Shown: positions 41,482 through 45,382 of the stretch, in pieces
How the letters are laid out: each line of letters opens with the position of its first letter
Numbering within the stretch: position 1 is the first letter of the stretch
Origin: Actinomycetes bacterium
Lineage (GTDB): Bacteria > Actinomycetota > Actinomycetes > Nanopelagicales > Nanopelagicaceae
DNA length: 56,774 bases
NCBI GenBank assembly: GCA_025363635.1
Contig: JANYDL010000050.1
Location: forward strand, 1-56,774
Direction of reading: 5' to 3'
Made by a program: the position numbers and the translations under genes
Notes under the pieces: model-generated
Databases searched by the model: none
What the model was told of the DNA's origin: nothing
What the model saw: only the letters and a program-made list of their open reading frames with translations

Positions 41482-41976
41482 ATGTTGATTGATGTGTTGC
41501 TGATTCTCATCGCTATCGGATCCGTTTTCACTGGGTTTCGTCGAGGCTTCTTGCAGACTTTACTCACAACAGTGGGTTACATCGGCGGTGGAGTTTTGGG
41601 ACTTGCGCTCGCACTTCACTTCGCGGCTCAGGTTCATAGTCAGATAAATCGAATTGGTGCGATTTTACTTTCGATTTTTCTTATGGCCGAGATTGGGCGA
41701 AGAGTTTTCGGAAAGTTAGCGAATTTTTTTCGTACCCGAATTCTCTGGGCTCCACTTCGATTTATAGATTCTTTGGCAGGGGTCGCGTTAGAACTAGTGC
41801 GAGCAACTTTGATCACTTATTTAGTGCTTTCCGTTCTGCTTTGGTCGCCCTGGAATTCCGTGCGATCTGCAGTCAGAGAGAGCACGATATATCCAAGTAT
41901 CACGAAAGAACTGCCAGAACCCGTGAAGAACTTTCGAAGCGAAATAGAAAAGAAACTTTCTACTAATCTTCTTTAG
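41482..41976 (+). CDS. CvpA family membrane protein
   Basis: 164 residues with four hydrophobic helices; the first shows the CvpA signature (VLLILIAIGSVFTGFRRGFLQTLLTTVGYIGG, of which FRRGF is typical). CvpA is linked to colicin V production and envelope stress. In many actinobacteria the same domain is fused to a serine protease (MarP), but here the protein stops after the membrane part. Its 3' end overlaps the convergent acs gene by 14 bases. Confidence 0.83.
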   Translation: MLIDVLLILIAIGSVFTGFRRGFLQTLLTTVGYIGGGVLGLALALHFAAQVHSQINRIGAILLSIFLMAEIGRRVFGKLANFFRTRILWAPLRFIDSLAGVALELVRATLITYLVLSVLLWSPWNSVRSAVRESTIYPSITKELPEPVKNFRSEIEKKLSTNLL

Positions 41977-43930
41977 ATGAACTTTGGAGTCCCTCGGAGA
42001 TCAACTTCATAATATTGGGATCAGCCAAGGTTGTGGAGTCTCCCACGGCTCGATTTTCCGCGACGTCTTTAAGGAGCCGGCGCATAATCTTTCCGCTACG
42101 AGTTTTTGGAAGTTCAGCAACAACAATAATTTGACGGGGTCTTGCGATAGCGCCAATTTCTTTAGCAACATGTGCACGCAATTCCTGAACAAGCGCATCG
42201 CCCGTCGCGTGATCAATGCCATTTCTTAAGATGACAAATGCGACGATACCTTGACCGGTCATTGCATCTGACGCTCCTACAACTGCAGCTTCGGCTACGG
42301 CGACATGCGAAACAAGAGCAGACTCAACTTCTGTGGTGGAAATGCGATGGCCGGATACATTCATGACGTCATCTACTCGACCTAATAACCATATCGCTCC
42401 ATCGTCATCAAGCTTGGCTCCATCTCCGGCAAAGTAAATACCGTCGAATTTTGACCAATAATTCTCCTTGTATCTCTGAACTTCGCCCCAAATGCCGCGC
42501 AACATCGAAGGCCATGGTTGGTCAAGAATCAAATAGCCACCGTGTCCATTTGCTACGGGCTGGGCAAGATCGTCAACCACTTTTGCACTAATGCCAGGCA
42601 GAGGCCGCATGGCAGAGCCAGGTTTTGATGCCGTTATCCCTGGCAGTGGAGAAATCATGATTGCTCCAGTTTCAGTTTGCCACCAGGTATCCACGATTGG
42701 ACAACGACCGCCTCCAATTATTTCGTAGTACCACATCCATGCTTCAGGGTTGATCGGTTCGCCGACAGAACCCAGCAGGCGAAGAGACTTCAAATTGTGT
42801 CCCTGCGGAAATTGGTCGCCCCACTTCATCCAGGTTCGGATAAGTGTTGGAGCGGTATACAAAATAGTCACTGCGTATTTCTCAATCAATTCAAATATGC
42901 GGCCTTTGTGCGGAGTATCAGGAGTGCCTTCATACATCACTTGAGTGGCACCGTTCATCAGCGGTCCGTAGACAACATAAGAGTGTCCCGTAACCCAACC
43001 CACATCTGCAGTGCACCAGAAAATATCGCTCTCTGGTTTAATATCGAAAACCATTCTGTGAGTAAAGGCCACTTGCGTGAGATAGCCACCTGTAGTGTGG
43101 AAAATACCTTTTGGTTTTGCCGTGGTCCCAGAGGTATAAAGAATGAAGAGCGGATGTTCACTATCAAAGCTTTCAGCGTCATGTTCCTCGCTCTGTCGGT
43201 CAACAATGTCATGCCACCATGTGTCGCGACCTTCTACCCACTCGACCTCTTGCCCCGTGCGTTTTACAACCAAAACATTTTTAACATTCGTTTCACCGCG
43301 AAGCGCGTCATCTACCGCCGGCTTGAGAGCGAAGGCGGCGCCCTTTCGAAAACCGCCATCTGCAGTAATAACCAAGGTCGCATCGGCATCTTGAATTCGT
43401 GATAAAAGTGCTTCTGCTGAGAATCCACCGAATACAACTGAGTGTGGGGCGCCTATTCGCGCGCAAGCCAACATAGCGATAGCGGCTTCAGGAATCATAG
43501 GCATATAAATTGCGACTCGATCTCCAGCCTTGATCCCAAGTTCGATAAGTGCATTCGCACTCTTCTTCACTTCAATGAGGAGTTGGGAGTAAGAAATAGT
43601 TCGAGTGTCTCCAGGCTCCCCCTCAAAAAAGAAGGCCGTGCGGTCACCTCTTCCCTCACGTACATGTCGGTCCAGACAATTAACCGAAGCATTTATTTTT
43701 CCTCCGACAAACCATTGAGCGAAAGGTGGTTGCCAGTCGAGAACTTGATTCCACGGCTGAGTCCATTCAAGACTCTTAGCTTGCTCTTCCCAAAATGCAA
43801 GGCGATCGCGATTCGCCTGAGCGTAAATAAAAGGCTGGGCATTAGCCCCTGCGGCAAATTCAAGACTTGGTTGGAAAGTGCGAGTTTCGGTGAGAAGGTT
43901 TTCGAGAGTTTCGTGGGTTTCTGAAGTCAT
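41963..43930 (-). CDS. acs: acetyl-CoA synthetase
   Basis: 655 residues of the AMP-forming acyl-CoA synthetase superfamily. The P-loop is YTSGTTAKPKGI, then TADVGWVTGHSYVVYGPL, DTWWQTETGAIMI, YFAGDGAKLDDDG, and the acetylatable Lys in TRSGKIMRRLL (K614). It activates acetate to acetyl-CoA via acetyl-AMP. No ribosome site precedes the ATG (the coding strand there reads CCTCCTC). TAACCT nine bases upstream (43940-43945) may be the -10 of a very short or leaderless message. Confidence 0.95.
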   Translation of the reverse strand: MTSETHETLENLLTETRTFQPSLEFAAGANAQPFIYAQANRDRLAFWEEQAKSLEWTQPWNQVLDWQPPFAQWFVGGKINASVNCLDRHVREGRGDRTAFFFEGEPGDTRTISYSQLLIEVKKSANALIELGIKAGDRVAIYMPMIPEAAIAMLACARIGAPHSVVFGGFSAEALLSRIQDADATLVITADGGFRKGAAFALKPAVDDALRGETNVKNVLVVKRTGQEVEWVEGRDTWWHDIVDRQSEEHDAESFDSEHPLFILYTSGTTAKPKGIFHTTGGYLTQVAFTHRMVFDIKPESDIFWCTADVGWVTGHSYVVYGPLMNGATQVMYEGTPDTPHKGRIFELIEKYAVTILYTAPTLIRTWMKWGDQFPQGHNLKSLRLLGSVGEPINPEAWMWYYEIIGGGRCPIVDTWWQTETGAIMISPLPGITASKPGSAMRPLPGISAKVVDDLAQPVANGHGGYLILDQPWPSMLRGIWGEVQRYKENYWSKFDGIYFAGDGAKLDDDGAIWLLGRVDDVMNVSGHRISTTEVESALVSHVAVAEAAVVGASDAMTGQGIVAFVILRNGIDHATGDALVQELRAHVAKEIGAIARPRQIIVVAELPKTRSGKIMRRLLKDVAENRAVGDSTTLADPNIMKLISEGLQSSSKED

Positions 43931-43962
43931 AATTTGAGGAGGTTACCCTTCCGAGCGCGGGA

Positions 43963-44053
43963 TGGGTAGTGATCCACCGCGTAGTCGTACTCACACGAGG
44001 ATGAAGCCGAGTCTTTGTCCAGGGGCTAGGGCGTGAGAATCCACACCTACCCA
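43963..44053 (+). promoter_or_regulatory. possible structured leader of the 36-residue protein
   Basis: TGGGTAG (43963-43969) is complementary to CTACCCA (44047-44053), closing a 77-base region directly before the ribosome site. Inside, CTCAC (from about 43991) can pair with GTGAG (about 44033). It could be a cis-regulatory RNA, but I could not match it to a known riboswitch class. Confidence 0.3.
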
Positions 44054-44066
44054 GAGAAAGGAAGTT

Positions 44067-44177
44067 ATGAGCCTCATTACCTTTTTAAATGCATTTTTAA
44101 AGATCCTCGCCAATCCAGCCCTGGTCAGTGGACTTGCCAGTCTTCTTCTAAAAATGCTTAAAGCGTTAGGGCACTAG
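44067..44177 (+). CDS. unrecognised 36-residue amphipathic small protein
   Basis: ATG at 44067 with a strong ribosome site (AAAGGAAG, two bases away) and TAG at 44175. The chain starts MSLITFLNAFLKIL, has a central Asn-Pro (16-17), and ends LLLKMLKALGH. There is no Asp or Glu; Lys lies at 12, 29 and 32, so the net charge is about +3, with hydrophobic residues spaced as in amphipathic helices. There is no signal peptide. It is divergent from acs and followed by a strong hairpin terminator, so it is probably its own transcript. It could be a small membrane protein, a leaderless-bacteriocin-like or toxin-like peptide. I do not recognise a family. Confidence 0.6.
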   Translation: MSLITFLNAFLKILANPALVSGLASLLLKMLKALGH

Positions 44178-44206
44178 CTCGCGTCACATGACTTGATTTA
44201 GGCTCG

Positions 44207-44244
44207 AAATTCGCCACGAAGGACCATCCCTCGTGGCGAATTTT
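44207..44244 (+). terminator. strong intrinsic terminator after the small protein gene
   Basis: The arms 44207-44222 (AAATTCGCCACGAAGG) and 44228-44243 (CCCTCGTGGCGAATTT) pair over 16 positions with one mismatch around a five-base loop, with T residues at 44241-44244. The flanking A/T runs are symmetrical, so it could work in either direction. It separates the small gene from fba. Confidence 0.8.
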
Positions 44245-44347
44245 CGTTACGGGTCAGTATGTGGTGGGATTGGGCGTAAGCCTCCGATCGGCTCAACGTT
44301 GCGCTAGATGCGGGATTACATTCGTGTCGACCTTTGGAGCAATCAGA

Positions 44348-45382
44348 ATGCCAATAGCAACTCCCGAAATTTATTCTCAGATGTTGGATCGCGCCAAGGC
44401 TGGCTCATTTGCGTATCCCGCGATTAACGTTTCTTCATCTTCTACTCTTGTTGCAGCCCTTCGCGGATTTGCCGAAGCGCAGTCGGATGGAATTATTCAA
44501 TTTTCATGGGGCGGAGCCGAATTTGCTTCTGGTTCCACAGTAAAAAAGATGGTAGACGGCGCAATTGGCCTTGCCGAATTCGCGCATGTTATAGCTAAAA
44601 ATTACAACGTCAATATTGCCTTGCACACCGATCATTGTCCGGCAGAGAAACTAGATGGGTTTATGCGCCCGCTTTTGGATTTTGGAATTGACCGAGTGAA
44701 GTCAGGCAAAGCCCCACTCTTCAATTCGCACATGTGGGATGGTTCGGCAGTTTCAATGAAGGAGAATATGACGATCGCTGACGAACTTCTCGTGAAGTCG
44801 GTTGCTTCTCACACAATCATGGAATTGGAAATTGGGGTAGTCGGTGGAGAAGAAGATGGGGTTGAGGCAAAGCATGATGCAAAGTTGTATTCGACTCCAG
44901 AAGATGCAATATTGACGGCAGCAACTCTCGGCTTGGGAGAACGTGGTCGATACATGCTTGCTGCAACATTTGGAAATGTCCACGGCGTATACAAGCCTGG
45001 AAACGTTGTGCTACAACCAAAAATACTTAAAGATTTGCAAGATGCAGTGGCAGCGAAAAGTGGACTTGCTTCAGGTTCAAAACCTTTCGATTTAGTATTT
45101 CACGGCGGCTCTGGATCATTGCTAAGTGAAATTCGTGAAGCCCTAGATTATGGCGTGGTAAAAATGAATATTGATACGGATACGCAATATGCCTATACAC
45201 GGCCGGTGGTAGATCACGCCTTTAAGAATTATGACGGTGTTCTTAAGATCGATGGCGAAGTAGGAAACAAGAAGATGTACGACCCTCGAGCATGGGGCAA
45301 AGCAGCAGAGGCTGGTATGGCGGCTCGAGTTCAGCGAGCTTGCGATGACCTTCGATCCTCAGGTACATCATTGCTCGCCTAG
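44348..45382 (+). CDS. fba: class II fructose-bisphosphate aldolase
   Basis: 344 residues from the ATG at 44348, with GGAG about nine bases upstream; in-frame codons further upstream fall in the terminator region. Catalytic D95 and zinc ligand H96 lie in ALHTDHC. Other zinc and substrate motifs are TFGNVHGVYKPGN, VFHGGSGS and KMNIDTDTQYAYTRPV. It cleaves fructose 1,6-bisphosphate in glycolysis and runs in reverse in gluconeogenesis. The next gene is purA after 64 bases. Confidence 0.95.
   Translation: MPIATPEIYSQMLDRAKAGSFAYPAINVSSSSTLVAALRGFAEAQSDGIIQFSWGGAEFASGSTVKKMVDGAIGLAEFAHVIAKNYNVNIALHTDHCPAEKLDGFMRPLLDFGIDRVKSGKAPLFNSHMWDGSAVSMKENMTIADELLVKSVASHTIMELEIGVVGGEEDGVEAKHDAKLYSTPEDAILTAATLGLGERGRYMLAATFGNVHGVYKPGNVVLQPKILKDLQDAVAAKSGLASGSKPFDLVFHGGSGSLLSEIREALDYGVVKMNIDTDTQYAYTRPVVDHAFKNYDGVLKIDGEVGNKKMYDPRAWGKAAEAGMAARVQRACDDLRSSGTSLLA

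Follow-up and report, generated by a model that had tools for sequence, protein, structure and literature searches.

Between the divergent genes for acetyl-CoA synthetase (acs) and class II fructose-bisphosphate aldolase (fba) in a genome of the Nanopelagicaceae, a family which we take to be acI, lies an open reading frame (ORF) of 36 codons. Its presence raises the question of whether so small a frame is a gene at all and, if so, what its product might do. In the window, i.e., the entire analyzed stretch of 56,774 nucleotides, the frame runs uninterrupted from an ATG to a TAG codon (Table 1), and its translation has lysines at positions 12, 29, and 32 and no aspartate or glutamate, as the original prediction held. 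The signals described around it are borne out as well. The strong ribosome-binding site recurs as AAAGGA or AAAGGAG before nearly all orthologs (AAAGGAG being typical of other genera), and the gene's own terminator keeps arms of the form TCGCCAY/RTGGCGA in relatives, with compensatory changes in both arms.

Table 1. Features of the acs-fba locus in the window.
Feature	Position	Strand	Remarks
acs, acetyl-CoA synthetase	41963..43930	-	Divergent neighbor; Pfam ACAS_N, AMP-binding, and AMP-binding_C; adjacency kept across genera
Probable acs -10	43940..43945	-	TAACCT (relatives, GGTAATCT); the acs ATG is about 10 nt away
Fixed-geometry operator-like block	43963..43995	.	GGTAG...CACCG...CTCACA in the window; between the divergent genes; putative function
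Ribosome-binding site AGAAAGGAAG	44055..44064	+	GAAAGGA, almost without variation among 18 leaders of the genus
Gene for the 36-aa small protein MSLITFLNAFLKILANPALVSGLASLLLKMLKALGH	44067..44177	+	Stop codon included; orthologs at the same site; purifying selection
Intrinsic terminator hairpin	44206..44244	+	14-bp outer stem, then a U tract
fba, class II fructose-bisphosphate aldolase	44348..45382	+	Downstream neighbor; own conserved upstream block

A search with the 36 residues finds the gene in 18 of the 20 other genomes of the window's genus (g1), i.e., in 19 genomes together with the window's own. In all 19 it lies between acs and fba, divergent from the former and upstream of the latter, with ATG as its start codon and a strong ribosome site before it. 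Genomes G001 and G014 (74% and 83% complete, respectively) lack the small gene as well as acs and fba, so that incomplete assembly is the simplest reason for its absence. Among the seven closest species, 33 of 34 third codon positions vary, compared with 14 of the first positions and 9 of the second, and the pairwise differences at codon positions 1, 2, and 3 amount to 155, 88, and 445; between the window and its nearest relative, 22 changes are synonymous and 2 nonsynonymous. Judged from these alignments, selection on the small gene is purifying. The original prediction was open to refutation by a frame that is not conserved in relatives or by the lack of an excess of third-position changes; both checks were run, and the gene passed both. 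Its very short length is what speaks for a spurious ORF, a reading that the conservation and codon-position tests refute and that retains virtually no probability. By the same tests the frame, earlier called unlikely to be accidental, is far beyond chance, and the comparison of sequences shows that the 36-codon ORF is a real gene.

A profile search extends the family to a second genus (g16), in nearly all genomes of which the gene also lies between acs and fba, and a wider profile reaches a diverged version in genomes G304, G185, and G195. In one g16 genome (G178, locus L070), the small gene is cleanly lost, leaving an acs-fba gap of about 140 nt with no ORF inside. Nine further genera (g2, g3, g4, g6, g7, g8, g13, g15, and g17) have an ORF at the same site, those of g3, g4, g6, g8, g13, and g17 being known from one genome each. 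These ORFs encode 34-54 residues, hydrophobic and mostly cationic, lie at a distance of about 110-190 nt from the start of acs, and are mostly preceded by an AAAGGA-type ribosome site. The ORF recurs in 29 of 32 g7 genomes and in 9 of 25 g2 genomes, many of these incomplete, and adjoins acs in the loci examined in both genera. In every pair tested from g16, g7, and g2, pN is lower than pS. The window protein can be aligned with members from g2, g3, g13, and g17 through the pattern K/R-x-L-x-S...L...K/R-x-L-x-x-L-G, and the homology of the g6, g7, and g15 forms rests mainly on position. Genera g5, g9, g11, g12, and g14 possess acs without the small gene beside it; together with the loss in G178, this implies that at least some genomes can do without the gene and that it does not invariably accompany acs. 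The family is probably a freshwater one, and most of its genera have the gene placed back-to-back with acs. Beyond the family, about 300 genomes sampled across the class yielded no matches, and no relatives were found on plasmids or viral contigs. As far as these genomes indicate, the gene is vertically inherited, single-copy, and chromosomal in an actinobacterial family whose single-contig genera have genomes of 1.2-1.5 Mb.

Downstream, fba is followed by purA, and further neighbors encode CvpA, thioredoxin-like, and GNAT proteins. Several g2 genomes and g17 no longer have fba at the acs locus but retain the small gene next to acs. No match to fba was obtained in three genomes of g2 and one of g17 (e.g., G021, G118, and G036), which suggests that the class II aldolase has been lost or replaced there. 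The block upstream of fba in the window (44259-44328, GTGGTGGGATTGGGCGTAAGCC...GCGCT...GATTACA) shows strong conservation across genera and may constitute a promoter/operator or an RNA. Rfam gave no matches on the locus, also at a permissive threshold, alifold yielded little for this block, and an arm-swap test on it is weakly positive (p 0.002), a value confounded by relatedness.

The region between acs and the small gene calls for a revision of what was first proposed. Aligned leaders share an ungapped block counted from the acs start (GATTACC, GGTAG, CACCG, and (T/C)TCACA), after which they are variable up to the ribosome site. The conserved GATTACC reads GGTAATC in reverse, and its TACC is the reverse of GGTAAYCT, a good -10 element for acs. 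TACCCT at 43944-43949, put forward as a -10 of the small gene, is conserved only in TACC; it is reassigned to the reverse of the conserved acs -10 and probably belongs to the acs promoter, on the wrong strand for the small gene. From the distance between this acs -10 and the ATG, the acs mRNA would be nearly leaderless; the acs 5' end (43928-43945, minus strand) appears to have almost no 5' leader and has no ribosome site. The leader of the small gene had been described as structured and closed by TGGGTAG (43963-43969) with CTACCCA (44047-44053). This full 7-base pairing occurs in 2 of 19 leaders (the window and L007), most of the 19 pair at the level of shuffled sequences, and the mean folding z is about 0. 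The 5' arm is conserved due to its location inside the fixed acs promoter/operator block, and the 3' arm is not conserved among leaders. A folded leader is rejected on the latter and on the z value, the leaders folding no better than shuffled sequence.

An intergenic box reads TTATCCACA in g7, TTATCAACA in g16, and TTTTCCCCA in g2, g6, g15, and g17. Across genera, the acs -10 is followed by TTATC(A/C)(A/C)CA or TTTTCCCCA at positions that vary by group, as expected for a putative protein-binding site. Both the g7 form and TTATTCACA, present in some g1 relatives, resemble a DnaA box; an exact TTWTNCACA is absent from the box of the window. The sequences are suggestive of a DnaA-box-like or activator site.

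All 39 members from g1, g16, g3, and g4 are devoid of acidic residues and carry a net charge of +2 or +3. Phe6, Lys12, Pro17, and Lys29 are invariant in an alignment of g1 with one g16 member, and Lys12 is present in more than 90% of a wider member set. Mean hydrophobicity (Eisenberg) is 0.42-0.57 in most members, the longer g7 and g15 versions being less hydrophobic, while the hydrophobic moment of many members falls in the upper tail of shuffles, a modest excess with p of 0.004-0.3 per sequence. AlphaFold predicts a helix at residues 2-14, an Asn-Pro hinge, and a helix at residues 17-34 (mean pLDDT 85.6, pTM 0.38). Pfam, NCBIfam, and PADLOC profiles show no significant match to the small protein, the PDB gives no matches by sequence or by fold, and none of the PHROGs profiles is significant (best E 0.0087, in 1 of 41 members). 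The similarity to Pfam DUF5326 (PF17260; E 0.012 in 6 of 41 members) is not significant and has hydrophobic helical composition alone in common, and that to Pardaxin (PF07425; E 0.042 in 1 of 41 members) is likewise non-significant and by composition only. Published work on the lineage's small proteins or transcriptomes provided nothing useful. The description as an undescribed small cationic amphipathic protein is supported, more than 100 genomes conserving it and no database family matching it. From its sequences, it represents a new, previously unnamed small-protein family of more than 100 members, the mechanism of which we infer below.

One explanation is that the peptide spans the membrane, as a kinked single span or a helical hairpin, and serves as a small subunit dedicated to a transporter or a respiratory complex, comparable to other very small bacterial subunits. 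The hydrophobicity of most members, the predicted helix-hinge-helix, and strict vertical inheritance in single copy agree with this, but helices of 13 and 18 residues are short for spanning, the conserved Lys12 would fall mid-membrane in the single-span model, hydrophobicity is lower in the longer versions of g7 and g15, and no transporter or respiratory gene is among the neighbors; the reading is possible, if unlikely. Still less probable is a type I toxin-like peptide that depolarizes the membrane and is released under stress, silencing at other times being due to antisense RNA or to folding of the leader. Reviewed type I toxins are shorter than 60 residues, hydrophobic, cationic towards the C-terminus, and contain a mid-helix proline (PMC8309996), all of which the small protein matches; by its length, hydrophobicity, and predicted helices it could also provide a helical membrane segment, and its gene has its own transcription unit. 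The TisB, Ldr/Fst, and IbsC classes share with it the size, hydrophobicity, helicity, and positive charge, and Fst/Ldr also an internal proline (PMC8309996). In contrast to these, neither an antisense RNA nor a structured leader that would mask translation is seen at the small gene: its leader folds no more than shuffles, its ribosome site is strong and open, and a consensus scan of 43850-44400 reveals no promoter-like site on either strand, be it for an antisense RNA or for the small gene itself. Besides, it occurs in one copy at one ancestral locus beside housekeeping genes in most genera and is absent from plasmids and phage contigs.

A secreted membrane-active peptide, similar to leaderless bacteriocins or PSMs, is the least likely of these three, given the lack of transport or immunity genes and the strictly local inheritance, and it has to be regarded as very unlikely. 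Known leaderless bacteriocins include peptides of about 30 residues with a charge of +3 to +4 (PMC6131525). Family members, at 32-54 aa, are alike in being leaderless (with a conserved start and ribosome site), cationic, and predicted to be helical, a formyl-Met start is expected in both cases (PMC6131525), and one member has the compositional likeness to Pardaxin given above. However, none of the neighboring genes (thioredoxin-like, CvpA, acs, fba, purA, and GNAT) is a transporter or immunity gene, the position is vertically fixed across the family rather than accessory, and PDB sequence and fold searches find no match. The original suggestion of a leaderless-bacteriocin-like product is therefore disfavored by single copy, vertical inheritance, the fixed site, and the missing transporter and immunity genes. 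As the ORF precedes fba on the same strand and a terminator hairpin separates the two, it might be a regulatory uORF that controls fba by attenuation. This highly improbable reading is rejected, and largely refuted, because the small gene is kept at loci where fba is missing; selection on residues rather than codons and the separate conserved block upstream of fba also oppose it.

The reading preferred here, tentatively and with somewhat less than an even chance of being correct, is that of a housekeeping small protein at the inner face of the membrane, modeled as two amphipathic helices, which would act on or with a membrane protein and is probably controlled together with acs. The gene divergently paired with acs would produce a peptide of 32-54 residues with no signal sequence, predicted to form two amphipathic helices connected by an Asn/Ser/Thr-Pro (or Gly/Ser) hinge. 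The peptide may lie on the membrane's cytoplasmic face, or dip into it, and have its conserved lysines at the lipid headgroups. Held there, it might stabilize or tune a membrane protein or process. Expression of the small gene and acs is probably linked via their common intergenic control region. Of the roles originally suggested, a membrane-acting peptide or a small regulator is the direction favored here. A more specific proposal, that the peptide acts directly with acetyl-CoA synthetase or with acetate entry at the membrane (e.g., by tethering or gating), is doubtful.

SpoVM is a very short amphipathic helical protein of the membrane surface that is synthesized in the cytosol and lacks a signal sequence. 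The small protein is also very short and is predicted to share the amphipathic helicity and the cytosolic synthesis without a signal sequence; it differs from SpoVM in having two helices and a hinge and in its unrelated lineage and context, and no sequence relation is seen.

In a lineage with streamlined genomes, this is a conserved gene smaller than the size limits commonly set for annotation. As selection keeps it at one site, the gene should have a useful function, and its fixed pairing with acs offers a concrete starting point for finding it. At the least, the family provides a new group of more than 100 small proteins for annotation. If the protein is membrane-bound and linked to acs, acetate metabolism would gain a new element; if it acts directly with acetyl-CoA synthetase or with acetate entry, the use of acetate by these streamlined cells, which are probably the most abundant freshwater actinobacteria, would involve a new component specific to the lineage.
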